DNA of 64,000 bases. It comes from Bacteroides nordii WAL 11050 = JCM 12987 (lineage in GTDB: Bacteria > Bacteroidota > Bacteroidia > Bacteroidales > Bacteroidaceae). Below, piece after piece: positions 4,779 to 63,667 of the stretch. The stretch lies in NCBI GenBank assembly GCA_000613465.1, contig BAJA01000003.1, forward strand, positions 186,001 to 250,000. The letters run 5' to 3'. Position numbers and translations under genes: made by a program. Position 1 is the stretch's first letter. Each line of letters begins with the position of its first letter. The notes beneath the pieces are model-generated. The model was not told the DNA's origin, searched no databases, and saw only the letters and a list, made by a program, of their open reading frames with translations.

Positions 4779-7336
4779 ATTAGTACTTTCATTGCTCCTG
4801 TTGCTGTCTCAGCAAGGATTAGGGGTGGCACAACAACTTCCTTATAAGAATAGCGCATTGCCTGTACAAGACAGGGTGGAGGATTTGCTGCAACGCATGA
4901 CACTTGAAGAAAAGATAGCCCAGATACGCCACATACATTCCTGGAATATATTCAACGGACAGGAACTCGATGAGAATAAGCTCGCCACTTTTGTAGGTGA
5001 TATAGGTTGGGGCTTTGTGGAAGGTTTTCCGCTGACCGGTGAAAACTGCCGGAAAAATATGCGGGTGATCCAGGAGTATATGATAAAGAATACTCGCTTG
5101 GGAATACCTGTATTTACCGTGGCCGAGTCCTTGCACGGATCCGCTCATGAGGCTCTACCATTTTTCCTCAGAACATAGCATTGGGAAGTACATTCAATCC
5201 GGCGCTTGCCTATCAGAAGGCGGCTCTGACTTCCTCTGATCTTCATGCCCAGGGGGTGTGTCAGGTTCTTGCCCCTTGTATCGATGTGGTACGGGATTTG
5301 CGTTGGGGAAGGGTTGAAGAGTCCTACGGAGAAGACCCTTTCCTCTGCGGGACATTGGCTTTGGCAGAGACACGTGGGTATTTGGATAACGGTATCTCTC
5401 CTATGCTGAAACATTTCGGAGCACATGGTAACCCTTTAGGCGGTTTGAATCTTGCTTCTGTGGAGAGTGGCTTGAGGGATTTGCATGATATCTACCTGAA
5501 ACCTTTCGAGATGGTTATTACTCAGTTGCCGGTACAGGCAGTTATGTCTACCTATAACTCCTGGAATCATGTTCCTAATTCGGCTTCTGCTACTTGTTGA
5601 CCGACGTTTTGCGGAAACAATGGGGGTTCAAAGGATACGTTTATTCTGACTGGGGGGCGATCGAGATGTTGCAGAACTTTCATCATACGGCTGCCACCCC
5701 TGCCGATTGTGCAGTACAAGCGCTTTCTGCCGGACTCGATGTAGAGGCTTCCAGTGAATGTTATCCGTACCTGAAGCAACTTATTGAGCAAGGGGAGTTT
5801 GACGAAAAGATACTGGATGAATCCGTACGTCGTGTGCTGGCTGCTAAATTTAAACAGGGACTCTTTGAAGACCCTTTTGGTGAAAAGATAAAGAAGACGG
5901 CGATGCACTCTGCCGCGAGTATTGCGTTGTCCCGTAAAATAGCAGATGAGTCTGTTGTATTATTGAAGAATGAGAATGGACTGTTGCCGCTGGATGCTGA
6001 CAAACTGCATTCAATTGCTGTGATAGGGCCGAATGCTGCGCAGGTACAGTTTGGTGATTATACCTGGAGCCGGGATAATAAGGATGGAGTTACTCCATTG
6101 GCAGGATTACAGAAGCTGTTGGGAAGTAAAGTAGCCATTCACTATGCTCCGGGATGCAGTATGATGTCCGAAGATACTTCATTGATCCCCGAAGCTGTGG
6201 CAGCAGCACAGAAAAGTGAGGTCGCTCTGGTGTTCTGTGGCAGTTCGAGTGCATCTTTGGCAAGAGATTATAGCAATACCAACTGCGGTGAAGGGTTCGA
6301 TTTGCATGATCTTAATCTTACCGGAGCACAGGGAGAGTTGATAAAGGCTGTTTATGCAACCGGAAAACCTGTAGTACTGGTATTGGTAAGTGGGAAACCT
6401 TTCACTATCGCCTGGGAGAAGGAACATGTGTCGGCTATCCTTGTACAGTGGTACGCAGGCGAGCAGGCGGGTAACTCTATTGCAGACGTTCTTTTCGGCA
6501 AGGTAAACCCTTCCGGGAAATTGACTTTCTCGTTCCCGCAGAGTGTAGGACATCTTCCGGCTTATTATAATTATTTGCCTTCTGATAAAGGGTTCTATAA
6601 AAAACCGGGGAGTTATCAGAAGCCGGGCCGGGATTATGTATTCTCTTCTCCTGCTTCTTTATGGGCTTTCGGATACGGATTGAGCTATACTTCTTTTTCT
6701 ATGAAGGATATGCAGGTATCGGTAAGGGAAGATTCGGTTTTTGTCAAAGCAGAAATACTTAACACAGGCAAAAGGGCCGGACAAGAGGTCGTTCAGCTTT
6801 ATGTGCGTGATCTTGTCAGCTCGGTTGTTACCCCTATAAAACAACTGAAAGCATTTGCGAAGGTGGAACTGCAGCCGGGAGAACAGAGGACGGTTTTGTT
6901 ACGTTTCCCGGTTGCAGAACTTGCCCTGACAAATGAAGCCGGGCAGCGGTTGGTTGAACCCGGTGAGTTTGAGATTCAGTTGGGTAACTCTTCTGATAAT
7001 ATCCTGTTGAAACAAACGATAAGGATAGGTGACAGTGTGAAGAAGGATTCAGGAGATGAAACTGCAACTCAAAGCAAACCTGTGGGGACGGGAAAGATGA
7101 GGACCGTTCGGGGAATTGTGAGAGATATACAGGCTACTTTGGTAGCGAACGTTTCTATTTGGTCTGTCGGACAGAAAAAGGAGATTGGGAAAACAAATAA
7201 GAAGGGAGAGTATGAAATACAAGCTGCATCGGATGATATCCTGATATTCTCCGGGAAAGGGTACTTAAAACAGACTGTACCTGTGAATCATCATACGGAC
7301 ATTAATGTAAAACTGGCGTACGGTGAAGACAGGTAA
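4759..7336 (+). CDS. GH3 beta-glycosidase with C-terminal regulatory-like domain; frameshifted twice as read
   Basis: Family GH3 enzyme of about 859 aa once two breaks are repaired. The start at 4759 gives a signal peptide ending LGVAQQ. The frame is lost near 5151 (GAGGCTC where GAGGGCTC restores the family's HEG...FPQN motif) and again near 5588 (TTCTGCTAC where one extra C restores SASRYLLTD). Repaired, it shows the N-terminal barrel (APCIDVVRDLRWGRVEESYGEDP), the nucleophile in VYSDWGA near residue 297, the alpha/beta sandwich (VLVLVSGKPFTI) and an Fn3-like domain (GEFEIQLGNSS). Unusually, about 80 residues follow (GIVRDIQATLVANVSIW to the end) that resemble a carboxypeptidase-regulatory-like beta domain, more typical of SusC N-termini. 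It probably removes terminal beta-linked sugars from oligosaccharides. The breaks are more likely sequence errors than decay. Confidence 0.78.
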
Positions 7337-9690: not shown

Positions 9691-10232
9691 AATAAATTCA
9701 GTTTTGCGCTTAATGGTGTTTGTCATCGCCATCAATCTCTTTCTCCGGTATTGATAAAGCCCTCTCTCGTAGAGTAACGTATGAAGCCTCGGTGTGTAAC
9801 GTTGTTTTAGATGTACATGTAAAGCAGTACGACATGCACATGTGGGACAGTACGACATGTGCATGTGGAGCAGTGAAACATGTACATGTAAAACAATGCA
9901 GCTCACCGGGGAAAGGAACGTTTCTTTCTGAGAAAGACAAAGTACAACACCGGACAAGGGTAACGATGCCGTCTATGGATACTTCCGCTATCGAAAAGAT
10001 AGGGCCATAATCTTCGTTATTGTACGGATTTGAATGTATTTCACCACAGAGTAACACGGAGTTCCACAGAGTTTAAATCTTTATTGAAAGGCAGATGATC
10101 GCAGATTCTCGCAAAGGGAAACAAATGTATGATAAAGAACTACAGTCTTTTAATTTGCGTTCATCTGTGTTAATCCGCGTTTTATCAGATAAATACTACT
10201 CTGTGGAACTCTGTGCTACTCTGTGGTGAGTT
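9691..10232. repeat. Dispersed ~540 bp structured repeat, copy A
   Basis: This gene-free stretch closely matches 42057-42595, 32 kb away and in the same orientation. The shared order is: a unique-looking left segment; four 23 bp units each carrying the palindrome ACATGTACATGT or a one-base variant (9809-9900); a near-palindrome GAAAGGAACGTTTCTTTC; a block ending GATAGGGCCATAATCTT; and a module bounded by ~33 bp inverted repeats (10040-10072 and 10198-10229, sharing CACCACAGAGTA). I see no transposase and no convincing ORF. It may be a non-autonomous mobile element, a structured RNA or a protein-binding array. Confidence 0.85.
9809..9900. repeat. Four tandem 23 bp units with ACATGTACATGT palindromes
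   Basis: Units begin at 9809, 9832, 9855 and 9878. Each opens with a 12-base (near-)palindrome of the ACATGT word followed by an 11-base spacer that usually contains CAGT. Units 2 and 3 (ACATGCACATGT and ACATGTGCATGT) are exact reverse complements. The outer units extend into an inverted repeat with TTGTTTTA on the left and TAAAACAA on the right, so the array can fold as one nested hairpin. Confidence 0.9.
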
Positions 10233-10387
10233 TTGCTCGTTTCTATTCAGATCCGAATAAATTCCGTTGCAGGTAGATAGCTACTCTTTTTTTACCAAAT
10301 CAATATCTGTTTGACTTCTCTTTTAGTGGTATAAAGAGTAGTTACCTTTGCGTCTGGTGTTATATTAAACTTTTTTTCTCTAATATT

Positions 10388-10417
10388 TTGTAGTCGAATA
10401 GATTATTTATATCTTTG
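10388..10417 (+). promoter_or_regulatory. Promoter of rimP-nusA-infB
   Basis: TATCTTTG at 10410-10417 matches the Bacteroidota -7 element TAnnTTTG. TTG at 10388-10390 sits 19 bp upstream as the -33 element. Transcription would start near 10424. A second TACCTTTG at 10343-10350 lacks a well-placed -33 element. Confidence 0.75.
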
Positions 10418-10438
10418 CACCCGAAACGGATGAAAGGT

Positions 10439-10464
10439 GGAGGGGCGATTAAGCTCCTTTTTTT
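10439..10464 (+). terminator. Leader hairpin with T-run ahead of rimP (possible attenuator)
   Basis: In the untranslated leader, AGGGGC (10441-10446) can pair with GCTCCT (10453-10458) across a 6-base loop with one G-T pair, followed directly by seven T (10458-10464). That is the layout of an intrinsic terminator between the promoter and rimP. A regulatory role in this NusA-encoding operon is inference. Confidence 0.45.
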
Positions 10465-10483
10465 GTTCTTATATAGCTAATCA

Positions 10484-10949
10484 ATGATAGAAAAGAAAAC
10501 TGTTTGTCAGATTGTTGAAGAGTGGCTGGAAGGAAAAGACTACTTTCTGGTAGAAGTAACTGTAAGCTGATGACAAGATTGTGGTTGAAATAGACCATGC
10601 AGAAGGAGTTTGGATTGAAGATTGTGTGGAGCTGAGTCGCTTCATCGAATCTAAATTAAACCGTGAAGAGGAGGATTATGAGCTGGAAGTTGGCTCGGCT
10701 GGAATCGGACAGCCATTCAAGGTAGTACAGCAGTACTATAATCATATCGGCAGTGAAGTGGAAGTATTGACCAAAAGTGGTAAAAAACTGGCAGGAGTGC
10801 TGAAAGAAGCCGATGAAGAGAAGTTTGTAGTGACTGTGCAGAAGAAAGTGAAGCTTGATGGAGCAAAACGTCCCAAACTTATGGAAGAGGATGAAACCTT
10901 CCGTTATGATGAGATAAAATACACTAAATACTTAATTAGTTTTAAATAA
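10484..10949 (+). CDS. rimP: Ribosome maturation factor RimP; frameshifted as read
   Basis: RimP helps assemble the 30S ribosomal subunit. The start at 10484 encodes MIEKKTVCQIVEEWLEGKDY. The frame then meets stops near 10568, where GTAAGCTGATGAC would read on as VSADDKIVV if two bases (GC) were restored. The rest, from VVEIDHAEGVWIEDC to the end, is intact and includes the ELEVGSAGIGQPF core. Repaired length is about 155 aa, normal for Bacteroides. It sits 1 bp before nusA, the usual rimP-nusA-infB order. The break is a probable two-base consensus error, because the rest of the reading frame shows no decay. Confidence 0.85.
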
Positions 10950-10950
10950 T

Positions 10951-12213
10951 ATGGCCAAGAAAGAAGAAACAATCAGCTTGATTGATACATTTTCGGAATT
11001 TAAGGAACTGAAAAATATCGATAGAACAACGATGGTAAGCGTGCTCGAAGAGTCGTTCCGGAGTGTGATCGCGAAAATGTTTGGCACTGATGAAAATTAC
11101 GACGTAATTGTAAACCCGGATAAGGGTGACTTTGAAATATGGCGTAACCGTGAGGTAGTGGCAGACGAAGATTTGACAAATCCGAATATGCAGATTTCGT
11201 TGACAGAAGCACAGAAGATCGATGCTTCTTACGAAGTCGGAGAAGAAGTAACTGACGAAGTTATTTTTGCAAAGTTCGGTCGTCGTGCTATTCTCAACCT
11301 TCGTCAGACATTAGCTTCTAAAATTCTTGAGCTTGAGAAAGATAGTATTTACAATAAATATATAGATAAAGTAGGTACGATCATTAACGCAGAAGTATAT
11401 CAGATCTGGAAGAAAGAAATGCTGCTGCTTGACGATGAAGGAAATGAACTGTTATTGCCTAAAACAGAGCAGATCCCGGCAGATTTCTACCGTAAAGGAG
11501 AGACTGCGCGTGCAGTGGTGGCCCGCGTAGATAACAAAAATAATAATCCGAAGATTATTCTTTCACGTACATCTCCCGTTTTCCTACAGCGTCTGTTTGA
11601 AATGGAAGTACCTGAAATTAACGATGGCCTGATTACTATCAAGAAGATTGCCCGTATTCCCGGTGAACGTGCTAAGATTGCGGTAGAATCTTATGATGAT
11701 AGAATCGACCCTGTAGGAGCCTGTGTAGGTGTAAAGGGAAGTCGTATCCATGGCATCGTTCGTGAGCTTCGCAACGAGAATATTGATGTGATTAACTATA
11801 CGTCAAATATCTCTTTGTTTATTCAGCGTGCACTGAGTCCGGCAAAGATCTCTTCTATCCGATTGAACGAAGAAGAGCGTAAAGCCGAGGTTTTCCTCCG
11901 TCCGGAAGAGGTTTCGCTGGCTATTGGTAAAGGCGGTTTGAATATCAAACTTGCCAGTATGTTAACTGAGTACACTATTGATGTGTTCCGTGAATTGGAT
12001 GAAAGCGCGCAGGATGAAGATATCTATCTGGACGAGTTCAAAGATGAAATCGACAGTTGGGTAATTGATGCTATTAAAGCCATCGGTATCGATACGGCTA
12101 AAGCTGTATTGACTGCACCTCGCGAAATGTTGATTGAAAAGACGGATCTGGAAGAAGAAACAGTGGACGAGGTATTACGTATTTTGAAATCGGAGTTTGA
12201 AGACAATGAATAA
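10951..12213 (+). CDS. nusA: Transcription termination/antitermination factor NusA
   Basis: 420 aa. The N-terminal RNA-polymerase-binding domain (about residues 10-130) is followed by S1 (GTIINAEVYQIWKKEMLLLD) and two KH domains (VDPVGACVGVKGSRIHGIVREL and EVSLAIGKGGLNIKLAS). An acidic C-terminal segment carries a helix-hairpin-helix-like repeat (IGIDTAKAVL, TDLEEETVDEVLRIL). NusA controls RNA polymerase pausing, termination and antitermination. It is part of the rimP operon, and the intrinsic-terminator-like leader hairpin upstream would allow feedback on its own expression. Confidence 0.96.
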   Translation: MAKKEETISLIDTFSEFKELKNIDRTTMVSVLEESFRSVIAKMFGTDENYDVIVNPDKGDFEIWRNREVVADEDLTNPNMQISLTEAQKIDASYEVGEEVTDEVIFAKFGRRAILNLRQTLASKILELEKDSIYNKYIDKVGTIINAEVYQIWKKEMLLLDDEGNELLLPKTEQIPADFYRKGETARAVVARVDNKNNNPKIILSRTSPVFLQRLFEMEVPEINDGLITIKKIARIPGERAKIAVESYDDRIDPVGACVGVKGSRIHGIVRELRNENIDVINYTSNISLFIQRALSPAKISSIRLNEEERKAEVFLRPEEVSLAIGKGGLNIKLASMLTEYTIDVFRELDESAQDEDIYLDEFKDEIDSWVIDAIKAIGIDTAKAVLTAPREMLIEKTDLEEETVDEVLRILKSEFEDNE

Positions 12214-12357: not shown

Positions 12358-15300
12358 ATGACGATAAGGTTAAACAAAGTAACAAGAGATTTGAATGTAG
12401 GAATTGCAACGGTAGTTGAGTTTCTACAAAAGAAAGGGTACACCGTTGAGGCAAACCCAAATACAAAAATTACCGAGGAACAATATGCTATACTCGTGAA
12501 GGAGTTTAGTACAGATAAAAATCTTCGGATTGAATCAGAGCGTTTTATCCAGGAACGTCAGAATAAAGATCGTAACAAAGCATCAGTAGCTATTGATGGT
12601 TACGAGAAACAACCGGAAAAACCTAAAACGGACGATGTTATTAAGACAGTTGTTCCTGAAGATGCACGCCCGAAGTTTAAACCTGTCGGAAAAATAGATT
12701 TAAATAAATTCAACCGGAAAACTGACAAAGAGGCAGCGAGTGAGACTAAGCCGCAACCTCAAACGGAAGTTCAGCCGCAGACTAAACCTGAAGCTCCCAA
12801 GCCGGCTCCTGCTCCTGTAGTGGAAGAGAAGAAAGTGGAGGAAGTGGTGAAACCTGTGGTCGTAGAGGCAAAAAAGGAAGAGGTGGTTGTACCTGTTTCA
12901 AAACCGGAACCGGTGAAAGAAGCACAGCCTGTAGTTGTAGAACAGCCAAAACCGGTAGTGGAAGAGAAAGTAGTGGAAGAAGTGAAAAAAGAAGAACAGA
13001 AAGTGGAAGCTGCTCCTGAAATAAAAGAAGAAAAGGTAGAATCGAAACCTGTTGTTTCGGAGGCTGCTGAGTCTGAAAAGAAAGACGATGACGTCTTTAA
13101 AATCCGCCAACCGGAGTTTGTGTCTAAGATTAATGTAATCGGTCAGATAGACCTGGCTGCATTGAACCAGTCAACCCGACCCAAAAAGAAATCGAAAGAG
13201 GAAAAACGGAAAGAACGGGAAGAAAAGGAAAAAGTTCGTCAGGATCAGAGGAAACAGATCAAGGATGCTATTATCAAGGAAATCCGTAAGGATGACAATA
13301 AGGTAGCTAAATCTGCTCCGAAGGAGAATGCCGATGCAAATGCAAAGAAGAAGCGTATCCGTATTAATAAGGAGAAAGTAGACGTTAATAACGTTGCTTC
13401 CAATTTTGCACATCCTACTCCCAATAGTCAGAAGCCTGCGGGGCAAGGTGGTGGCGGACAAAACCGCAACCGCAACAATAATAATAAGGATCGTTTCAAG
13501 AAACCGGTTGTAAAACAGGAAGTGAGCGAGGAAGATGTAGCTAAGCAGGTAAAAGAGACTTTAGCTCGTCTGACTACAAAAGGAAAAAATAAGGCTTCCA
13601 AATATCGTAAAGAGAAACGTGAAATGGTTTCCAGCCGTATGCAGGAATTGGAAAACCAGGAAATGGAAGACAGCAGAGTGCTGAAAATAACAGAATTTGT
13701 GACTGCCAATGAGTTGGCAAGCATGATGGATGTATCTGTTAACCAGGTTATCGCAACTTGTATGAGCATTGGTATGATGGTTTCTATCAATCAGCGACTG
13801 GATGCGGAAACAATTAACCTGGTAGCCGAAGAATTCGGTTTCAAAACAGAATATGTAAGTGCTGAGGTTGCTCAGGCCATTGTAGAGGAAGAAGATGCAG
13901 AGGAAGATCTTGAACCGCGTGCACCGATTGTTACTGTAATGGGACACGTTGACCACGGTAAGACTTCATTGCTTGACTATATCCGTAAGGCGAATGTAAT
14001 TGCCGGTGAGGCCGGAGGTATTACACAGCATATCGGTGCTTACCACGTTAGTATGGAAGATGGACGTAAGATCACCTTCCTGGATACTCCGGGACATGAG
14101 GCGTTTACTGCGATGCGTGCCCGTGGTGCTAAGGTAACAGATATTGCTATTATTATTGTAGCTGCTGATGACAATGTGATGCCACAGACAAAGGAAGCCA
14201 TCAATCATGCGATGGCTGCCGGGGTACCTATTGTATTTGCAATCAATAAGGTGGATAAGCCCACGGCTAATCCCGATAAGATAAAAGAAGAACTGGCTGC
14301 CATGAACTTCCTGGTTGAAGAATGGGGTGGTAAGTATCAATCACAGGATATCTCTGCCAAGAAGGGTATGGGTGTAAGTGAATTGATGGAAAAGGTATTG
14401 CTTGAAGCCGAAATGCTTGAGTTGAAAGCCAATCCGAACCGTAATGCAACAGGTTCTATTATTGAATCTACTTTGGATAAAGGACGTGGTTATGTGGCTA
14501 CAGTACTGGTATCCAATGGTACACTGAAAGTAGGTGATATCGTGTTGGCGGGAACCAGCTACGGTCGTGTCAAAGCGATGTTTAATGAACGTAATCAGCG
14601 TATCAAGCAAGCAGGTCCTTCCGAACCGGCATTGATCTTAGGATTGAATGGTGCACCTGCTGCAGGTGATACATTCCATGTTGTAGAGACGGATCAGGAA
14701 GCACGTGAAATTACTAATAAACGTGAACAGTTGCAACGTGAACAGGGCTTGCGTACACAGAAGATTCTTACATTGGATGAGTTGGGTCGTCGTATTGCAT
14801 TGGGTAACTTCCAGGAATTGAACATCATCGTGAAGGGTGACGTAGACGGTTCGGTAGAAGCTTTGAGCGATTCATTGATTAAACTTTCTACTCCGCAAAT
14901 CCAGGTAAATGTAATCCACAAAGGTGTGGGACAGATTTCCGAATCGGATGTTTCTCTGGCAGCTGCTTCAGATGCTATTATTATCGGTTTCCAGGTACGT
15001 CCTTCAGGTTCAGCTGAGAGAATGGCAGAAAAAGAAGGTGTCGATATCCGTAAGTATTCAGTGATTTATGACGCTATCGAAGAGGTGAAGGCTGCTATGG
15101 AAGGTATGTTGGCACCGGAAGTGAAAGAAGTGGTAACTTCTACTATCGAGGTTCGCGAAGTATTCAACATTACGAAAGTTGGTACGGTTGCCGGTGCGGT
15201 AGTAAAGACCGGAAAGGTGAAACGCAGCGACAAAGCGCGTCTTATCCGCGACGGTATTGTTATCTTCTCGGGTGCAATTAATGCGCTGAAACGTTTCAAA

Positions 15301-18561: not shown

Positions 18562-19905
18562 ATGAGTGTAGAACAACAATATATAGATCTCTTCTCACAA
18601 TGTGAAGCAATGATTTGCCGGCATAGTACTGAGGTCATGAATGCTCCGCGTGCTACTGCTTTTGCCGATTTTGAGCGGTTGGGCTTTCCTACACGTAAAC
18701 AGGAGAAGTATAAATATACCGATATCAGCAAATTCTTCGCGCCCGATTACGGACTTAATCTGAATCGTCTGGATATTCCGGTGAATCCCTATGAGGTGTT
18801 CAAGTGCGATGTGCCCAACATGAGCACCTCTTTGTTCTTTGTAGTGAACGATGCATTTTATAATAAGGCATTGCCAAAGTCGCATCTGCCGGAAGGAGTC
18901 ATCTTTGGAAGTCTGAAAGAGGTGGCAGAGCAACATCCCGATTTAGTAAAGAAATACTATGGTAAGCTGGCTGATACTTCTAAAGATGGAGTGACCGCTT
19001 TTAATACCGCCTTTGCACAGGATGGTGTACTGATGTATGTTCCCAAAAACGTAGTGGTAGAACGCCCTATTCAGTTGATTAATATATTACGTGCGGATGT
19101 CAATTTCATGGTAAACCGCCGTGTATTGATTATTCTTGAAGAAGGTGCGCAGGCGCGTTTATTGATGTGTGACCATGCTATGGACGGCGTAAACTTCCTG
19201 GCTACGCAAGTGGTTGAAGTGTTTGCCGGAGCGAACTCCGTATTCGATTTGTATGAATTGGAAGAGACACATACCAGTACGGTGCGTATCAGTAATCTCT
19301 ATGTAAAACAGGAGGCAAACAGCAACGTATTGCTTAACGGTATGACTCTTCATAACGGTACTACCCGTAATACAACAGAGGTAACTCTTGCGGGAGAAGG
19401 TGCAGAAATCAATCTTTGCGGTATGGCTATTGCCGATAAGAACCAGCATGTAGACAATAATACGACCATTGACCATGTTGTGCCAAATTGCACCAGTAAT
19501 GAATTGTTTAAATATGTACTCGATGACCAGTCTGTTGGCGCTTTTGCCGGTTTGGTACTGGTGCGTCCTGGTGCACAGCATACAAGTTCTCAACAAACGA
19601 ACCGTAATCTTTGTGCCACCCGTGATGCCCGTATGTATACCCAGCCTCAGTTGGAAATCTATGCAGACGATGTGAAATGCTCTCACGGTGCTACCGTTGG
19701 CCAATTGGATGAAACTGCTTTGTTTTATATGCGTACCCGTGGTATTGCAGAGAAAGAAGCCCGTTTGCTGCTTATGTTTGCTTTTGTAAATGAAGTAATA
19801 GATACCATCCGTTTGGATGCCTTAAAAGACCGCTTACATCTGTTGGTGGAGAAACGTTTCCGGGGTGAACTGAACAAGTGCCAGGGATGTGCGATATGTA
19901 AGTGA
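18562..19905 (+). CDS. sufD: Fe-S cluster assembly protein SufD
   Basis: 447 aa paralogue of SufB and partner in the SufBC2D complex. It begins MSVEQQYIDLFSQCEAMI, has the RKQEKYKYTDISKFF motif of the N-terminal helical part, the beta-helix core (GVTAFNTAFAQDGVLMYVPKNV, ADKNQHVDNNTTIDHV), and the C-terminal DDVKCSHGATVGQLDETALFYMRTRGI block of SufD. The C-terminus NKCQGCAICK is Cys-rich. Confidence 0.96.
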   Translation: MSVEQQYIDLFSQCEAMICRHSTEVMNAPRATAFADFERLGFPTRKQEKYKYTDISKFFAPDYGLNLNRLDIPVNPYEVFKCDVPNMSTSLFFVVNDAFYNKALPKSHLPEGVIFGSLKEVAEQHPDLVKKYYGKLADTSKDGVTAFNTAFAQDGVLMYVPKNVVVERPIQLINILRADVNFMVNRRVLIILEEGAQARLLMCDHAMDGVNFLATQVVEVFAGANSVFDLYELEETHTSTVRISNLYVKQEANSNVLLNGMTLHNGTTRNTTEVTLAGEGAEINLCGMAIADKNQHVDNNTTIDHVVPNCTSNELFKYVLDDQSVGAFAGLVLVRPGAQHTSSQQTNRNLCATRDARMYTQPQLEIYADDVKCSHGATVGQLDETALFYMRTRGIAEKEARLLLMFAFVNEVIDTIRLDALKDRLHLLVEKRFRGELNKCQGCAICK

Positions 19906-20007
19906 TTAGTGGTTGGTGATAAGTGATTAGTGCCATGCAGCATAATAGCGCAGCCCACTAATCACTAACCACTAATCACTAATCATTAACCAACTAATCA
20001 CTAATAA
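19906..20007. repeat. Inverted word repeat with shared core, sufD-sufS spacer
   Basis: Arms are copies of GTGATTAGT / ACTAATCAC. At the centre (19935-19955) lies ATGCAGC, five bases, AGCGCAGCC. The same core occurs at 30594-30614 and 30694-30714, inverted at 62177-62197, and degenerate at 34871-34891, where the arms are mostly different. Confidence 0.85.
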
Positions 20008-20008
20008 A

Positions 20009-21220
20009 ATGGATATAAAGAAGATACGTGAAGATTTTCCCATTCTAAGCCGTACGGTGTATGGGAAACCTTTGATTTATTTCGACAATGGTGCAACGAC
20101 TCAGAAACCTCGTCTGGTAATTGATTCGCTGGTAGATGAATACTATTCTGTTAATGCCAATGTGCATCGGGGAGTACACTATCTTTCTCAGCAGGCTACA
20201 GAGTTACATGAAGCTTCCCGTGCTACGGTGCGTGAGTTTATCAATGCCCGTAGTATAAATGAGATTATCTTTACCCGTGGTACAACAGAGGCTATTAATC
20301 TTCTTGTTTCCAGTTTCGGTGAGGAACTTATGGAAGAGGGAGATGAGGTTATTCTCTCCGTCATGGAGCATCACAGTAACATTGTGCCCTGGCAACTTTT
20401 AGCTGCCCGTAAAGGTATTGCAATAAAAGTGATACCTATGAATGATAAAGGTGAATTGTTGCTGGACGAATACGAGAAGCTTTTTTCAGACCGGACGAAG
20501 ATAGTGAGTGTAACGCAGGTTTCCAATGTATTGGGAACGGTTAATCCCGTCAAAGAGATGATTGCTACTGCTCATGCTCACGGGGTACCTGTATTGATAG
20601 ACGGTGCGCAGTCCGTACCTCATATGAAAGTTGATATGCAGGACATGGATGCTGACTTCTTTGCCTTTTCTGCACATAAAATCTATGGTCCTACCGGTGT
20701 GGGTGTTCTTTATGGAAAAGAAGAATGGCTCGACCGCCTGCCGCCTTATCAGGGTGGAGGAGAAATGATACAGCACGTTTCTTTTGAGAAAACAACGTTT
20801 AATGAACTTCCTTTCAAGTTTGAAGCCGGTACTCCCGATTACATTGGTACTACCGGGCTGGCAAAAGCCCTTGATTATGTGACAGGTCTTGGTATGGATA
20901 ATATTACCGCCCATGAACATGAACTGACTACTTATGCTATGCAACGTTTGAAAGAGATTCCGGATATCCGTATTTTCGGTGAGGCAGCGCACAAGAGCAG
21001 TGTTATCTCTTTTTTGGTAGGTAACATTCATCATTTTGATATGGGTACTTTGCTCGACAGACTGGGTATTGCCATTCGTACCGGACATCATTGTGCGCAG
21101 CCGTTGATGCAGCGTCTTGGTATTGAAGGTACGGTTCGTGCTTCTTTTGCCGTTTATAATACAAAAGAGGAGATTGATGCCCTTGTAGCTGGTGTGGAGC
21201 GCGTTAGTAAAATGTTCTGA
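20009..21220 (+). CDS. sufS: Cysteine desulfurase SufS
   Basis: 403 aa PLP enzyme that takes sulfur from cysteine for Fe-S cluster assembly. Opening KKIREDFPILSRTVYGKPLIYFDNGATTQKP, PLP-binding TTEAINL, SVMEHHSNIVPW, DGAQSVPHM, the Schiff-base Lys in FFAFSAHKIYGPTGVGVLYG near residue 227, and the catalytic Cys loop TGHHCAQPLMQRLG near residue 365. Last gene of sufBCDS. Confidence 0.97.
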   Translation: MDIKKIREDFPILSRTVYGKPLIYFDNGATTQKPRLVIDSLVDEYYSVNANVHRGVHYLSQQATELHEASRATVREFINARSINEIIFTRGTTEAINLLVSSFGEELMEEGDEVILSVMEHHSNIVPWQLLAARKGIAIKVIPMNDKGELLLDEYEKLFSDRTKIVSVTQVSNVLGTVNPVKEMIATAHAHGVPVLIDGAQSVPHMKVDMQDMDADFFAFSAHKIYGPTGVGVLYGKEEWLDRLPPYQGGGEMIQHVSFEKTTFNELPFKFEAGTPDYIGTTGLAKALDYVTGLGMDNITAHEHELTTYAMQRLKEIPDIRIFGEAAHKSSVISFLVGNIHHFDMGTLLDRLGIAIRTGHHCAQPLMQRLGIEGTVRASFAVYNTKEEIDALVAGVERVSKMF

Positions 21221-28095: not shown

Positions 28096-28362
28096 TAATT
28101 TTCATTATATACCGAGGAAATACTTAAAAAATACCGAAGAAAGAAGGCATATCTTCCGTATATAAAAGAAGAAAGGAGAAAGCTGCGGCTCTCTCCTTCT
28201 AATGTAGTTTAACTGAATCTACCTTATGATTACGTTGACGAAGATACGATATAAAAAAGCTAAAGTCAAGTAATCCGACATCTTTTTTCTTTCTTTTTTA
28301 TTTGCTTATCTCGTTTGGAATCAATACTTTTAGCCTTTCGTAAACCTCTAAAAATTTATTCT

Positions 28363-30567
28363 ATGGATAGCTTGCTTTTCTGGTTGGTTCCTGCCGCCTC
28401 TGTATTGGCTCTCTGCTTTGCTTATTATTTCCATAAGCAAATGATGAAAGAGAGTGAAGGTACTCCTCAAATGATTAAAATTGCTGCTGCAGTGCGCAAA
28501 GGTGCCATGTCTTATCTGAAACAACAGTATAAGATTGTGGGATGGGTCTTTTTCGGTCTGGTAGTCCTGTTCTCTATTATGGCCTACGGTTTTCAGGTAC
28601 AGAATGCCTGGGTACCTATTGCATTTCTGACCGGTGGTTTCTTCTCCGGACTTTCGGGGTTTCTTGGTATGAAGACGGCCACTTATGCTTCTGCACGTAC
28701 GGCCAATGCCGCCCGTACTTCTCTAAATGCCGGGCTGAGGATCGCTTTCCGTAGTGGTGCCGTTATGGGACTGGTAGTGGTAGGCCTTGGGCTTCTTGAT
28801 ATATCTTTCTGGTATTTATTGTTGAACTGGGCCATTCCGGCTGATGTATTGAGCCCTACCCATAAACTTTGTATTATCACTACCACGATGCTGACTTTCG
28901 GTATGGGAGCTTCCACACAGGCATTGTTTGCCCGCGTGGGTGGCGGTATTTATACCAAAGCGGCCGATGTGGGCGCCGACCTTGTGGGGAAGGTAGAAGC
29001 AGGCATACCAGAAGATGATCCGCGAAACCCTGCCACCATTGCCGATAATGTAGGTGACAATGTAGGTGATGTGGCTGGTATGGGAGCCGATCTTTATGAG
29101 TCTTATTGTGGCTCTATCCTTGCTACCGCCGCATTGGGGGCAGCTGCCTTTATTCATACAGGTGACACCGTGATGCAGTTTAAAGCCGTTATTGCCCCGA
29201 TGCTGATTGCTGCTGTGGGTATTCTGCTTTCTATTATTGGTATCTTCTCGGTGCGTACCAAAGAGAATGCCAAGATGAAAGATTTGTTGAATTCCCTTGC
29301 TTTCGGTACAAATCTGAGTTCGGTACTGATAGTAGCGGCTACTTTCTTTATCCTTTGGCTGTTACAGCTCGAAAACTGGATGTGGATTTCTTGTGCCGTC
29401 GTAGTCGGATTGGTGGTTGGTATTATCATCGGCCGTTCTACCGAATATTATACATCCCAGTCCTATCGTCCTACCCAGAAGTTGAGTGAGAGCGGTAAGA
29501 CTGGTCCGGCTACAGTAATCATCTCCGGTATTGGTCTGGGGATGCTTTCTACGGCCATTCCTGTATTGGCTGTCGTAGTGGGTATTATAGCTTCTTTCCT
29601 GTTTGCTTCTGGTTTCGACTTTGATAATGTCGGTATGGGACTTTATGGCATTGGAATTGCTGCCGTAGGTATGCTCTCTACATTAGGAATAACCCTTGCT
29701 ACGGATGCTTATGGACCGATTGCCGACAATGCCGGTGGGAATGCCGAAATGTCCGGCTTGGGTGAGGAGGTACGTAAGCGTACGGATGCCCTCGATTCAT
29801 TGGGTAATACAACAGCTGCTACCGGTAAAGGATTTGCCATTGGCTCTGCTGCATTGACGGGGCTTGCCTTGCTTGCTTCTTATATTGAAGAGATCCGTAT
29901 TGGACTGACTCGTCTGGGGACAATCGAACTGACGATGCCCAATGGCGATGTGATAGCTACTGCCAATGCTACCTTTGTGGATTTCATGAATTACTATGAT
30001 GTCACTTTGATGAATCCAAAGGTACTTTCCGGTATTTTTATTGGTTCTATGATGGCTTTCCTTTTCTGTGGATTGACAATGAATGCTGTTGGTCGCGCTG
30101 CCGGGCATATGGTGGATGAAGTACGTCGTCAGTTCCGTGAGATAAAAGGTATCCTGACCGGAGAGGCAGAACCCGATTACGAACGTTGTGTGGCTATCTC
30201 CACCAAAGGTGCTCAGCGTGAAATGGTTATTCCTTCACTTATAGCCATTATTGCTCCTATTCTTACCGGAGTCATTTTTGGAGTGACGGGAGTTGTTGGT
30301 TTACTTATCGGTGGTCTGAGCAGTGGTTTCGTACTTGCTATTTTTATGGCTAATGCCGGTGGCGCCTGGGATAATGCAAAGAAATATGTAGAGGAAGGCA
30401 ATTTAGGTGGCAAAGGCGGCGAAGTACACAAAGCAACTGTTGTGGGCGATACCGTTGGTGATCCGTTTAAAGATACATCTGGTCCGAGTTTGAATATCCT
30501 GATAAAGCTTATGAGCATGGTTGCCATTGTTATGGCAGGTCTGACTGTTGCCTGGAGCTTGTTTTAG
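28363..30567 (+). CDS. hppA: Membrane-bound ion-pumping pyrophosphatase
   Basis: 734 aa integral membrane enzyme that couples PPi hydrolysis to H+ and/or Na+ transport. Start chosen at 28363 ([13 protein letters not shown]), preceded by other in-frame initiators that give no signal or conserved sequence. Catalytic motifs: [48 protein letters not shown] and [25 protein letters not shown] near residue 481 has Ala where K+-independent enzymes have Lys, so the protein should be K+-stimulated. About sixteen hydrophobic segments. Which ion is pumped is not decided here. Confidence 0.95.
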
Positions 30568-30645
30568 TTGAAAATTGAAAGTTGAAAATTACTATGCAGC
30601 GTTATAGCGCAGCCAATTTTCAACTTTCAACTAAATAATTATCTT
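30568..30645. repeat. Inverted word repeat with shared core, first copy after hppA
   Basis: Arms of TTGAAAATTGAAAGTTG and AATTTTCAACTTTCAAC words surround the core at 30594-30614 (ATGCAGC, five bases, AGCGCAGCC). TATCTTTG at 30640-30647, at the right edge, could be the -7 element for rnhB, without a clear -33 TTG. Confidence 0.85.
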
Positions 30646-30667: not shown

Positions 30668-30745
30668 GATTATGCTATTAGTTGAAAGTTGCTACGTAGT
30701 ATAATCGCGCAGCCAATTTTCAACTTTCAATTTTCAACTAAATAA
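30668..30745. repeat. Inverted word repeat with shared core, second copy before rnhB
   Basis: A second element only ~30 bp after the first, with the same arm words (GTTGAAAGTTG / CAATTTTCAACTTTC) and a variant core at 30694-30714 (ACGTAGT, five bases, CGCGCAGCC). Confidence 0.85.
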
Positions 30746-30752
30746 AGCGATT

Positions 30753-31355
30753 ATGCTATTACCTTATTTGAATGAAGGTCTTGTGGAGGCCGGTTGTGAT
30801 GAAGCTGGGCGTGGTTGTTTGGCCGGTTCTGTTTATGCTGCCGCCGTTATTCTTCCGGTAGATTTTAAGAATGAACTCTTGAATGATTCCAAACAGCTCA
30901 CCGAAAAACAACGTTATGCTTTGCGTGAGGTTATTGAGCGGGAAGCTGTTGCCTGGGCTGTTGGGATTGTATCTCCTGAAGAGATAGACGAGATAAACAT
31001 TCTGAATGCTTCTTTTCTTGCCATGCATCGTGCGGTAGATCAACTCAAGGTACGCCCGGAACATCTTCTTATCGATGGTAATCGTTTTAAAAAGTATACT
31101 GATATACCTCATACAACGGTGATAAAAGGGGACGGGAAGTATCTGTCCATTGCTGCTGCTTCTATCCTGGCGAAAACTTATCGTGATGATTGTATGAACC
31201 GGTTGCATGAAGAATTTCCTTATTATGATTGGGATCATAACAAAGGATATCCCACAAAAAAACACCGTGCAGCTATTGCCGAACACGGTGTTTCTCCTTA
31301 TCATCGGATGACCTTCAACCTGTTGGGTGACGGTCAGTTATCCTTAGAATTCTGA
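30753..31355 (+). CDS. rnhB: Ribonuclease HII
   Basis: 200 aa enzyme that cuts the RNA strand of RNA-DNA hybrids and single ribonucleotides in DNA. Conserved [21 protein letters not shown] near residues 18-38 (catalytic Asp-Glu), [39 protein letters not shown] and the closing [11 protein letters not shown]...[10 protein letters not shown]. The 3' end overlaps the convergent outer-membrane protein gene by 12 bp. Confidence 0.96.
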
Positions 31356-34814: not shown

Positions 34815-34891
34815 AAATGGAAAATTGAACGTTGGAAATGAAAAAAGTTATTTAATGAAAAGTTGAAAGTTGTTGCCCTGTCACGCTACAT
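34815..34891. repeat. Degenerate half word repeat near corA
   Basis: AATTGAACGTTGGAAATG and AAAGTTGAAAGTTG words form one arm only, next to a diverged, inverted copy of the core (34871-34891, ending GTCAC then GCTACAT). No matching arm follows on the other side. The rest of the 300 bp between corA and the lipoprotein gene is the terminator and promoter listed separately. Confidence 0.5.
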
Positions 34892-34935
34892 AGTACTTCT
34901 CCCTTCTCCACTCTCCCTTCTTCTTACCCCTTCTC

Positions 34936-35862
34936 TTAGAACCATTTAATCTTTTTGAATATGATGAACGCCATTGCAGAAAGCACTACTGAAGATAATA
35001 CGATTAATGCAAAAGCGTGTGGCACTTCATCAATGTGTATATCTACATTCATTCCATAGAAACTGGCAATCAGTGTAGGTATCATCAATGTAATAGACAG
35101 GCTTGTCATGCGTTTCATGATCGCATTCACATTGTTGGAAATGATAGAGGCAAATGCATCCATGGTTCCCGTAAGGATATCACTATAGATATTCACGGTA
35201 TTGAATGCTTGCTTTAATTCGATTATAACATCTTCCACTAATTCCTGGTCCAGATAGTCAGTATCCTGAAAAATACTTTTCAGTTTACCTATCATCACCT
35301 CATTACCACGAATAGAGGTGTTGAAGTAAACGAGTGTTTTCTGTAATTTCATCAGGCGCAGAAGATCTTCGTTGCGGATGCTTTTTTCCAGCTCTTTTTC
35401 TGCTGCGGTGATATCAACATTAATTTGTTTCAGGTATTTCAGAAACCATACTGCCGATGAATAGATAAGCCGTAAAATCAAGTCTAATTTATTGCGTACT
35501 ATGATCCCTTTACGGCGGGTATGTTCAATAAAATCCGGTAGTAATTCCGTGTTGTGATAACATACGGAAACAATGATTTCATTGTTGGTAATGATGCCAA
35601 TGGGGACGGTGCTGAATGGGATACCGTTCTGATTACTTTGTACGGGTATACGAAGAATAGTCAATAACCAATTCCCCTCCGTATCTGTACGAGGACGTTC
35701 GTCGGTATCGGCTATATCATTTAAAAAAGATTCCGGGACTTGTAATTCCTGAGTCAGAAACTCAAAATCATTTGCATCGGGGCATACTACGTTCACCCAG
35801 CTATTGGGTAGCCATTGTGATTTTTCCACAAAGCCAGCCTCACAATAAAGATATTTTCTCAT
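34936..35862 (-). CDS. corA: CorA-family magnesium/divalent cation transporter
   Basis: 308 aa. Soluble N-terminal alpha/beta domain (MRKYLYCEAGFVEKSQWLPNSW, FLNDIADTDERPRTDTEGNW), a long helical region, and two C-terminal membrane segments with the signature GMN in SFYGMNVDIHIDE near residue 268; the chain ends in basic KKIKWF. Length and layout are typical. It has its own promoter and terminator, divergent from gpmI. Confidence 0.93.
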   Translation of the reverse strand: MRKYLYCEAGFVEKSQWLPNSWVNVVCPDANDFEFLTQELQVPESFLNDIADTDERPRTDTEGNWLLTILRIPVQSNQNGIPFSTVPIGIITNNEIIVSVCYHNTELLPDFIEHTRRKGIIVRNKLDLILRLIYSSAVWFLKYLKQINVDITAAEKELEKSIRNEDLLRLMKLQKTLVYFNTSIRGNEVMIGKLKSIFQDTDYLDQELVEDVIIELKQAFNTVNIYSDILTGTMDAFASIISNNVNAIMKRMTSLSITLMIPTLIASFYGMNVDIHIDEVPHAFALIVLSSVVLSAMAFIIFKKIKWF

Positions 35863-40925: not shown

Positions 40926-40997
40926 TAGCCCGTGGGGGAGTCGAACCCCCCTTTCAAGAATGAAAATCTTGCGTCCTAACCGATAGACGAACGGGCC
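40926..40997 (-). tRNA. tRNA-Glu (anticodon TTC)
   Basis: The minus strand folds into a complete cloverleaf: acceptor GGCCCGT pairing with ACGGGCT, D-arm around TCTATCGGTTAGGA, anticodon stem CAAGA/TCTTG with the loop TTTTCAT (anticodon TTC), and T-arm GGGGGTTCGACTCCCCC. CCA is not encoded. It sits between its promoter and rpsT. Confidence 0.97.
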
Positions 40998-60869: not shown

Positions 60870-62138
60870 TTATCTTATTTTTAATGTAATAATCGTTATG
60901 GCTGCCAGTACAATCGTTACAATCCAAAAGCGAACTGTGATTTTTGATTCGTGAAACAGATTGTCCGGTTTTGTAAACACTACCCGGCATCCGTCTTCTA
61001 TCTGATTTATTGATGTACGGAAATGGTCGTGTATAGGCGTACGTTTAAAGAGACGTTGTTTCACTCCTTTCCGTTTACCGACTTTATAATAGGCACGTTG
61101 CAGAATCACCGACAGGTTTTCTATCAGGAACACACCACAAAGAATCGGAATCAGTAATTCTTTGTGTATAATGATGGCAAATACGGCAATAATACCACCA
61201 ATTGTTAAGCTACCCGTATCTCCCATAAATACTTGTGCCGGATATGCATTGTACCATAAGAATCCTATCAGTGCACCGATAAATGCGCAAATGAAGATAA
61301 CCAGTTCTTCCGAACCGGGGATATACATAATGTTCAGGTATCCCGCGAATTCAATGTGGCTTGATACATATGCTAATATTCCCAATGTTAATCCGATGAT
61401 GGCAGAGTTACCCGCGGCCATACCGTCCATGCCGTCATTCAGATTGGCTCCGTTGGATACGGCTGTCACCACAAAGATGGTGATGATAACAAACAATATC
61501 CAACCGGCTGTTTGAGCATGATCACCCATAAAAGCTACCAGATCGGCATAATCAAGGTTATTGCTTTTAAAAAACGGAATGGTAGTCTGAGTAGACTTGA
61601 GATCATTCGTCCCATGTATAACCTCCATTTCACGTCCGGGAGTTTGTACCTCGATGTTTTCACGAATTACCACATCCGGGCTGAGGTATAGGGTTAATCC
61701 GACAATCAGCCCTAATCCTACCTGACCGATAATTTTAAACTTACCGTGTAATCCTTCTTTGTCTTTTTTGAATATTTTGATATAGTCATCGGCAAATCCC
61801 AGTGATCCCAGCCATACAGTGGTGATGAGCATCAATATCATATAGATATTATGTAATTTTCCAAGCAACAGGCAAGGTATCAAAATGGCTACAATGATGA
61901 TAACACCTCCCATACTGGGTACACCTACTTTGTTGACGCCAAAAGGATCGATTTTAGCATCACGCTGTGTTTCCGTGATTTGCTTTCGTTTCAGCAAATT
62001 GATAAACTTGTCACCCCAGATACTTGAAATCAGCAGTGCTAGAATGATAGCCATCAATGCACGGAAAGATGTATATCCAAACATTCCCGCTCCGGGGAAG
62101 TTTAATTTATGTAGCCACTCAAATAGATAGTATAACAT
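60870..62138 (-). CDS. mraY: MraY, phospho-MurNAc-pentapeptide transferase
   Basis: 422 aa integral membrane enzyme that makes lipid I. Motifs: GVPSMGGVIIIVAILIP, the Asp pair in LGFADDYIKIFKKDKEGL, NDGMDGMAAGNSAI, AFIGALIGFLWYNAYPAQVFMGDTGSL, and the HDHFRT-type KRTPIHDHFRTS near 390. A ~50-residue periplasmic insert (VVIRENIEVQTPG to FFKSNNLDYADL) is longer than in E. coli, as in other Bacteroidota. Confidence 0.97.
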   Translation of the reverse strand: MLYYLFEWLHKLNFPGAGMFGYTSFRALMAIILALLISSIWGDKFINLLKRKQITETQRDAKIDPFGVNKVGVPSMGGVIIIVAILIPCLLLGKLHNIYMILMLITTVWLGSLGFADDYIKIFKKDKEGLHGKFKIIGQVGLGLIVGLTLYLSPDVVIRENIEVQTPGREMEVIHGTNDLKSTQTTIPFFKSNNLDYADLVAFMGDHAQTAGWILFVIITIFVVTAVSNGANLNDGMDGMAAGNSAIIGLTLGILAYVSSHIEFAGYLNIMYIPGSEELVIFICAFIGALIGFLWYNAYPAQVFMGDTGSLTIGGIIAVFAIIIHKELLIPILCGVFLIENLSVILQRAYYKVGKRKGVKQRLFKRTPIHDHFRTSINQIEDGCRVVFTKPDNLFHESKITVRFWIVTIVLAAITIITLKIR

Positions 62139-62144
62139 GATTTT

Positions 62145-62225
62145 AGTGATAAGGGATTAGTGATAAACGATTAGTCGGCTGTGCTGTCAGGCTGCATAGC
62201 ACTAATCATTAATCACTAATCATTA
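62145..62225. repeat. Inverted word repeat with shared core, mraY-murE spacer
   Basis: GGGATTAGTGATAAACG / CACTAATCATTAATCAC arms, nearly the same words as in the sufD-sufS spacer, around an inverted core at 62177-62197 (GGCTGTGCT, five bases, GCTGCAT). The right arm runs into the end of murE. Confidence 0.8.
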
Positions 62226-63667
62226 AACATTTCTTTCAGTATCTCTTTATCATCAAAGTGATGTTTCACTCCTTTTATCTCCTGATAGTTCTCATGCCCT
62301 TTTCCGGCAACGAGAATTACATCTCCTTTTTCGGCCAGCATACAAGCGGTGCGAATAGCCTCTTTACGGTCTGTAATACTGATTGTTTTCTTTCTGTCCT
62401 CTGTGTCCAGACCAGCTAACATATCATTTATGATGTCCTGAGGTTCTTCAAAACGAGGGTTATCCGATGTGATGACAACGCGATCGCTTGCTTTGGCAGC
62501 TTCTTTGGCCATAATAGGACGCTTACCTTTGTCACGGTTACCTCCGGCACCTACTACGGTAATCACTTTTCCTTTTCCTTCAAGTACCCCATGAATGGCA
62601 TTCAACACATTTATCAGAGCATCCGGAGTATGTGCATAATCAACGATTGCTGTATATCCCTGTGGCGAACGAATGGCATCAAAACGTCCGGCTACCGGAT
62701 GGAGTGTACTGAGTGCTACCAGTACGTCTTCTTCTTTCTTACCAAGCAACACTGCTGCACCAAATACAGCCAGAAGATTGGAAGCATTGAATTTACCTAT
62801 GAATTGTACCATCAATTCATGGTTATTGAAATCAAGCAACATTCCTTCAAAATGTGATTCTAACACTCTGCCTTTGAAGTCACTCAAACTCCTCAGAGAG
62901 TAGGTGTACACCTTCGAACGTGTGTTCTGTGTCATAACCAACCCGTTTTTATCATCCAGGTTAGTAAGGCTGAATGCACTCTTGGGTAGGTCATCAAAGA
63001 ATTTTTTCTTTGCTTTCAGATAGTTTTCTACTGTCTTATGATAATCCAGATGGTCACGGGTCAGGTTGGTGAAGATACCTCCTGCAAACTTTAAACCACT
63101 GATACGTTTCTGAGCAATGGAGTGGGAGCTTACCTCCATGAAAACGTATTTACAGCCTTCATCAGCCATTCTTCCCAGCAATCGGTTTAGTGTGATAGGG
63201 TCAGGAGTGGTATGCTCAGTCGGAATCGCTTCATCATCAATATAGTTACATACCGTTGAGATGAGTCCTACTTTATATTTGAAATAACGGAATGTATTAT
63301 ATAATAAGGTAGCGATTGTTGTTTTTCCGTTTGTTCCGGTTACACCCACCAATTCCACTTTTGAAGTAGGATCTCCAAAGAAAGTAGTAGCAACTTTACC
63401 GGTTGCATCTTCGCTGTCTTTCACTTGTATATAGGTGATACCTTCTTCCGGATGTTCAGGCATATCTTCACAAAGCACAGCTATGGCTCCTTTTTCAATT
63501 GCTACAGGAATATATGCATGTCCGTCTGTCTGTGTGCCACGCATAGCCATAAATAAATGGCCTGCCTCCACTTGTCTGGAATCAATGTTGACTCCTGTTA
63601 TTTCTATGTCCGAAGCTCCGACAACTTGTATCGGTTGAATAGCCTTTAATAATTCATTTAACTTCAT
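62216..63667 (-). CDS. murE: UDP-MurNAc-tripeptide synthetase MurE
   Basis: 483 aa Mur ligase adding the third residue of the stem peptide. ATP loop [17 protein letters not shown] near 108, [58 protein letters not shown], and DNPRFEEP near 405. DNPR is the motif of meso-diaminopimelate-specific MurE, so the wall is predicted to be of the meso-DAP type. Confidence 0.97.

Follow-up and report, generated by a model that had tools for sequence, protein, structure and literature searches.

What is the repeat that fills the spacer between a sufD-like and a sufS-like gene of Bacteroides nordii, and how does a unit with a conserved centre and exchangeable arms come to lie there and elsewhere in the genome? 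The window, the whole stretch of DNA analysed here, comprises 64,000 nt of the 5.59-Mb draft genome of B. nordii (G000) and holds five elements of one repeat family. The five sites named in the original prediction all lay where it had placed them, and a covariance model of core plus stem matched 5/5. This model was trained on 35 elements of the same family, all from outside the window, which were selected for palindromy of at least 0.78, equal length and the absence of gaps. The gene names used for the window (sufD-like, sufS-like, murE-like, rnhB-like) are those of the first, sequence-only reading. A search of the whole window with Rfam at gathering score returned one tRNA and no other match; the tRNA gene lies at 40926-40997 on the minus strand.

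Element 1, which carries word C (GTGATTA), spans 19901..20006 on the plus strand as delimited from the sequence and the ORF list, with a left arm at ~19901-19933, the core (CATGCAGCATAATAGCGCAGCC) at 19934-19955 and a right arm at 19956-20006. The model matched it at 19914-19974 (E = 1.8e-10; fold z = -9.1). The element fills the spacer between the sufD-like ORF at 18562-19905 and the sufS-like ORF at 20009-21220, and the first word of its left arm supplies the TGA stop of the sufD-like ORF. Two further plus-strand elements carry word B (TTGAAAR). Element 2 (30566..30635; core TATGCAGCGTTATAGCGCAGCC at 30593-30614; model match 30573-30632, E = 7e-16; fold z = -5.5) overlaps with its left arm the TAG stop of the ORF at 28315-30567. 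Element 3 (30680..30742; model match 30676-30732, E = 1e-5; fold z = -3.9), the core of which has decayed (TACGTAGTATAATCGCGCAGCC at 30693-30714), lies just upstream of the start of the rnhB-like ORF at 30753-31355. Element 4, again with word C, is on the minus strand (62142..62229; core 62177-62198; model match 62158-62218, E = 3e-8; fold z = -4.6), between the ORF at 60870-62138 and the murE-like ORF at 62216-63667, both on the same strand, and its left arm extends into the end of the latter. Element 5 (34845..34935, minus strand; core ~34872-34893; model match 34854-34912, E = 0.0014) is a hybrid, with word D (GGGAGAA type) in the left arm and word B in the right arm as read on that strand, and stands directly 3' of the stop of the minus-strand ORF at 34936-35862. 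When folded as RNA, Elements 1 to 4 fell 3.9 to 9.1 s.d. below dinucleotide shuffles.

Each unit is a palindrome of about 60-110 bp, sometimes longer, made of a purine-rich heptamer left arm, a ~22-bp core at the tip and a complementary heptamer right arm. The core is close to TATGCAGC-N5-AGCGCAGCC, and the core can fold alone into a small hairpin (TGC-A-GC / GCGCA) with a single bulged base. Seven elements that were folded formed stems of ~14 to >30 bp (z = -3.9 to -14.2), and 96% of cells were paired in the 35 elements, a set chosen for palindromy. The original prediction had named a core at chance frequency, lacking flanking inverted words, as the outcome that would count against it. Instead, TATGCAGCNNNNNAGCGCAGCC with up to 3 mismatches had 68 matches in the 5.59-Mb genome versus 2 for the backward-read control, and nearly all of the 53/68 matches read with their flanks had two-sided word arrays (L045 had one on the right side only). 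Some of the three-mismatch matches, including several of the 15 unread ones, are probably chance hits. Model matches at E<=0.01 numbered at least 86 in G057, 83 in G043, 80 in G000, 68 in G056 and 66 in G047, these high counts being lower bounds since no more than 91 candidates were scored for each genome under strict filters. Lower counts were obtained for G042 (43), G031 (B. clarus; 36) and G001 (32).

The arms had been described as inverted arrays of short words. The inversion stands, and the words can now be given as degenerate heptamers: left arms matched themselves at 0.58 at lag 7, compared to 0.24-0.31 at all remaining lags between 3 and 13, with word E as an exception of period 8. G000 uses words A (TTGACAR), B (TTGAAAR), C (GTGATTA), D (GGGAGAA), E (AATRTGCC) and, in one copy, GTTAGTA; GAAGAAT, GAGCTAC, GGTATTA, GAAGTAT and others occur in other species, and words A, B and B2 are nearly related. 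With words assigned by a hand-made k-mer list, which classified 47 of 51 G000 copies on both arms, 41/47 copies carried the identical word on both arms (10.9 expected; the best of 10,000 permutations gave 24). The six two-word exceptions comprised five true one-arm hybrids and one misclassified word C element (L022). The polarity of the TTGAVA words is fixed: 442 kb of G000 contained 15 arrangements with the purine side on the left and 0 with the pyrimidine side there. We rejected the idea that one arm is, as a rule, an exact copy of the other: among 45 copies with words A-D from G000 and B. salyersiae, a perfect 28-nt arm-to-arm match was present in just 5/45 within the element, though this is above chance (7/368 between elements; p = 0.005).

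The same few words recur at many sites of a genome and differ by species, not by neighbourhood. In G000, core subtype and arm word also tend to co-occur, CATGCGGC being found mostly with word C. The suggestion that local words are copied outward from the core was therefore not supported; because the words are shared across the genome and differ by species, and core subtype tends to follow the word, spread of whole units is indicated instead. All 19 classified G001 copies carry a single word. This set looks like a burst, but its arms (likeness 0.77 left, 0.67 right) are no more alike than those of the G000 word families (0.75-0.87 left, 0.50-0.81 right), and its core identity of 0.89 is matched by that of G000 word D (0.88).

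Several variants of the arms were also seen. At ~2000-2100 of L163 (G042), arms of a period-9 word (GGATTACAC) surround the same kind of core, and a related repeat, GGCACGGATTACACGG, borders G001 elements in the flanks of loci such as L133 and L138. Several G047 elements are enclosed in an outer shell of AAATGATAATTT and its complement (L216:400-530, 5700-5880, 12430-12570 and 19195-19370); at the 12430 site, G057 retains the shell ends around a different interior sequence. A coreless palindrome of 8-letter words (AAGGTGAT type) at L216:16530-16625, with orthologues in L244 and L245, is nearly unchanged in G047, G057 and G042 and is followed by T-rich sequence, so that it looks like a terminator. 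Three word-D elements of B. salyersiae (L095, L098, L103) have similar left flanks, those of L095 and L098 being 100% identical over 346 nt, and a larger repeat may carry the element there.

A model match at E<=0.01 was present in 36/60 genomes of the genus sample and absent from 24/60. At the level of the order, the own genome and two marginal others matched at E<=1e-4 among 295 genomes; we did not accept the two matches outside the genus as family members, as their words are the same but the centres between them differ. When named genomes were scanned for one exact form of the core, 23 loci were obtained, of which 21 were in Bacteroides (B. salyersiae, oleiciplenus, clarus, gallinarum, timonensis, faecichinchillae, propionicigenes, xylanisolvens and one uncultured); the two others, in Pontibacterium and a Lachnospiraceae MAG, were armless. 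Carriage by phages was likewise rejected, since the 8 loci of the viral core scan were all armless and apparently all in one phage gene. Palindromes of TTGAVAR words occurred in 15/393 genomes of the order and in 9/395 of the class, a count to which the own genome and two members of the order contribute, and those outside the genus that were read have other centres (e.g. L197 in G163, L198 in G159). Because the centres differ outside the genus, the word arms appear to be older than, or independent of, this core, and the presence of the same words around other centres in other Bacteroidales families means that word and core can separate. In G401, 5 listed of 7 places have centres that by eye resemble GTAGGCAAA, and this genome may possess a conserved centre of its own. 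G045 had 39 weak model matches (best E = 1e-5), possibly of a sister family with another core.

Comparison of orthologous spacers, which the original prediction had suggested, revealed both word swaps and gain or loss of whole units. From 132 elements in fetched loci we obtained 23 interspecies pairs with both flanks matching, representing 12 sites. The word was swapped (arm similarity <=0.20, a cut-off fixed after the values were seen) in 10/23 pairs and at 6/12 sites, while the core and the flanking genes stayed; of the remaining 13 pairs, 4 had intermediate arm similarity (0.33-0.38) and 9 were at >=0.52. The word was retained in 4/4 pairs with both flanks at >=93%. The orientation of the core relative to the genes was inverted in 10/23 pairs. 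At one site three species have three words: TTGAAAA-like in B. oleiciplenus (L099), TGAAGAA in G057 (L150) and TTGACAA, with the core inverted, in G047 (L193). The flanks of these versions align at 83-91% apart from a small indel, the outer boundaries are identical and each arm has four heptamers in all three, two of the three words differing mainly by one letter in seven. The conserved centre and exchangeable arms that had been predicted thus hold true even for a single gene spacer compared across species.

The sufD-sufS spacer, compared in 13 of the 60 genus genomes, gave a similar picture. A palindrome with a core variant was present in 6/13, and the spacer measured just 11-35 nt in 7/13 (G001, G009, G012, G014, G021, G022, G042). 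The word was C in G000, GAAGAAT in G057, in G047 and, with the core inverted, in B. clarus, GGTATTA in G056, and others again in G043 and G018. Further sites compared among G047, G057 and G042 had differing words, or an element in one species that was absent in another. The site L151-9142 is filled in G057 and empty in G042 and G047, whose flanks match at 95-97% and which read GTTTAATAAAATGAAACAT; roughly three bases were exchanged for the element. We saw no target-site duplication in the filled/unfilled comparisons, which include one clean intergenic case. At L144+15510, where G057 and G047 have the element, one word is all that G042 has. Gain or loss was also seen within genes: the thrC-like and ApgM-like genes contain an element in G057, and G042 and G047 have ordinary coding sequence there, 66 and 60 nt shorter. 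In threonine synthase, translated by eye, G042 and G047 read LKKIGKAN(N/D)AVICVPSGNFG, and the G057 element lies between LKK and VICVPSGNFG.

Copies inside genes had not been foreseen. We identified 16, of which 6 were in G000 (51 sites with enough flank), 10 in G057 (24 sites) and 0/19 in G001. They represent 13 sites when orthologues (L001 = L144+8766; L039 = L144+14718) and one duplication (L007/L011) are counted once. The loci include L151 (G057) at ~9700-11400, L144, L145 and L156, and in the own genome L001, L007, L011, L036 and L039. The hosts are a SpoIID-like gene (same place in G000, G057 and G047), an epimerase pair, a hybrid sensor kinase, RsmF, an FAD/Fe-S oxidase, a Golvesin_C protein, GH10-GH43 and GH67 enzymes, threonine synthase, an ApgM-type mutase, an FAD protein and a cobalamin enzyme; element-free orthologues of several of these genes exist in close relatives. 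We excluded three core-like matches located on long ORFs (L087-5886, L099-6630, L147-3253), as they had no arms. Words are exchanged here too: at L144+14718, inside a gene, the arms are built of word I in G042 and of a variant of word A in both G057 and G047, and G000 has a hybrid of D and B. At L144+8766, +14154 and +14718, and in the G047 orthologues, extra tandem copies of the 3' half of the core were observed at ~15-nt steps.

A single orientation and frame was shared by 15/16 in-gene copies, L008 being the exception, and the encoded peptides include, for example, SMQHDSAAN. Because an open frame of >=160 nt to either side was the criterion by which in-gene copies were chosen, their openness (15/15) and freedom from in-frame TGA (0/11 with TTGAC) follow by construction; the common frame, the continuity of the host domain across the copies, the existence of element-free orthologues and the places at which the word is altered do not. 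Openness alone is insufficient to account for the common frame, since this frame and the offset-0 frame were each open in 19/112 other copies. The A-word heptamers were altered in 11/11 in-frame cases (TGGAC, TAGAC, TTCAC or TGCAC), and 27/34 of those out of frame were plain TTGAC. We infer that the in-gene copies are translated and held open by selection. NCBIfam contains models named for Rickettsia palindromic elements (RPE). Among the matches listed for 8 of the 14 in-gene host ORFs that had been sent to Pfam (the best 25 of 36 in the case of one protein), none was to an RPE-named NCBIfam family.

We think it reasonably likely that the family consists of mobile, non-autonomous palindromes of Bacteroides that spread as units and overwrite older copies. 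A machinery would recognise the core hairpin and copy whole units into new places, and each subfamily would bear the word of its founder, which on this proposal is why species differ in their words. New units would land on old copies and overwrite them, producing a swap of the word on both arms at a fixed site; overwriting that sometimes hit one arm only would yield hybrids, and slippage afterwards would shuffle the number and order of heptamers. Copies would persist where the hairpin is tolerated: directly behind stops, seldom in divergent spacers and, within genes, almost always in a single frame. The constant tip is likely the part that is recognised, and recognition by a protein is plausible. 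Observations in favour of mobile units are the excess of core matches over the control, the copy numbers across genomes, the filled and unfilled sites, the one word of all G001 copies, the agreement of both arms in most G000 copies, the swaps at orthologous sites, the common frame of the in-gene copies and the placement at gene 3' ends. Against them, the moving enzyme, looked for as PF01797, was not found, and no target-site duplication was seen. The G001 'burst' rests on a single word, with arms of ordinary likeness, and heptamer order agrees within an element only slightly better than between elements. The occurrence of the words around other centres in other Bacteroidales families also counts against this reading.

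The three-word site of L099/L150/L193 fits rewriting in place at least as well as it fits mobile units. According to this explanation, the element is fixed, and words from a stock spread over the genome are used to rewrite its arms. The process could be gene conversion, with dispersed copies pairing at their cores, template switching at the hairpin, or the addition of heptamers by a templated polymerase. The equal boundaries and four heptamers per arm at that site, the swaps at half of the sites compared, the inverted cores, the five one-arm hybrids together with the window hybrid at 34854, and the close relation of words A, B and B2 all speak for it. However, gain or loss of whole units is shown by orthologous genes that have no element and by unfilled sites whose flanks match at 95-97%; core subtype tends to follow the word in G000, and the enzyme or template RNA is hypothetical. 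We regard rewriting, the main alternative, as a possible but doubtful explanation. In a particular form, which seems to us slightly more doubtful still, a cellular process would take stock words from an RNA template, or from other elements via core pairing, and copy them to either side of a fixed core; a locus would then change both arms at once, even in genes.

The position of the units relative to genes bears on a second alternative. For the four genomes G000, G001, B. salyersiae and B. clarus, crude ORF calls served to determine the gene neighbours. Of 74 intergenic copies, 33 were between convergent genes, 37 in tandem and 4 in divergent spacers, and in the tandem spacers the core pointed with the genes in 21 cases and against them in 16. 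The core centre was at a median of 45 nt from the adjacent stop codon, so close that the arm borders on the stop or overlaps it. A position immediately 3' of stop codons, with few divergent copies, is what functional RNA hairpins would show if they served as terminators or mRNA stabilisers at gene 3' ends and changed by compensatory drift, with no mobility. The very stable folds of the seven elements are in keeping with such a role, as is the finding that both sides had changed in 17/18 stem pairs, compared to 0/5 core-hairpin pairs, in the 35 chosen ungapped sequences. Pairwise drift, however, does not yield a few words common to many unrelated loci, and in-frame genic copies and a core conserved while the stem varies also argue against it. 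We consider this explanation improbable.

Dispersed hairpins at gene 3' ends, and the bulged base in the core hairpin, also recall REP/REPIN elements moved by a RAYT (Y1) transposase. PF01797 was found in 4/10 element-bearing relatives (G012, G018, G031 and G047, with one copy each) and in 0/5 element-free ones, a pattern that leaves a little room for this explanation. It was not found in G000, the genome being 93% complete, and was absent from the element-bearing G001, G035, G042, G043, G056 and G057, the last of which has at least 86 elements; nor did the 3-kb loci around four PF01797 genes contain an element. A Y1 transposase was thus rejected as the general mover, being missing here and in most element-rich relatives, and we judge movement by RAYT very unlikely. 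Chance matches or low-complexity sequence, for which only the low complexity of the arms speaks, are refuted by the 68 versus 2 core matches, the orthologous sites and the fixed in-gene frame, and deserve practically no credence.

Among known systems, the closest are Rickettsia palindromic elements, described as units of ~105-150 bp with a long stem-loop that occur in spacers and in frame in conserved genes (PMC2229807, PMC10969869). The Bacteroides units are likewise palindromic with a long stem-loop and have in-frame genic copies, while being somewhat shorter (60-110 bp versus 100-150). They belong to another phylum, their heptamer arms are exchanged, and only the ~22-bp centre is conserved. 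By this analogy, the family would appear to behave as RPE do. REP/REPIN sequences with RAYT are described as dispersed extragenic hairpins near gene ends (PMC3116915, PMC2817692), from which our elements differ by a constant centre, variable arms and the lack of a consistent Y1_Tnp link. With bacterial MITEs such as ERIC, RUP and Correia (PMC2229807, PMC10969869), for which the latter source calls in-frame fusions not unusual in intragenic copies, they share short length, non-autonomy, inverted arms and some in-frame fusions; here, however, the constant part is the centre, and no target duplication was seen in the few clean cases.

Two further systems share single features with the family. Direct repeats of the heptamer TAACTGA, reported from Beggiatoaceae, Cyanobacteria and five Bacteroidetes with their origin unexplained (PMC4679880), are also intergenic heptamer arrays of patchy distribution. 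As that account portrays them, they are direct, consist of one word and lie mostly just upstream of starts, whereas the Bacteroides arms are inverted, use many words, enclose a core and stand mostly behind stops. Coding palindromes of nematomorph mitochondria are inverted repeats in genes, with template switching discussed for their maintenance (PMC6649704); they are long perfect repeats of gene sequence, and the available part of that source reports no common core or words. In the open-access literature, as represented by titles and the starts of abstracts, we recognised no account of the present elements, which does not exclude that one exists.

Selfish palindromes inserted in frame at high frequency have so far been presented as a hallmark of Rickettsia (PMC2229807, PMC10969869). 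An abundant family is now at hand in Bacteroides, which are culturable and engineerable and include close relatives that differ at many sites. This makes the entry of elements into genes, the reason for the one frame and the exchange of arms testable. The contrast between a fixed tip and replaceable arms suggests which part needs to be recognised. Between sister species, the elements alter peptide loops of central enzymes.
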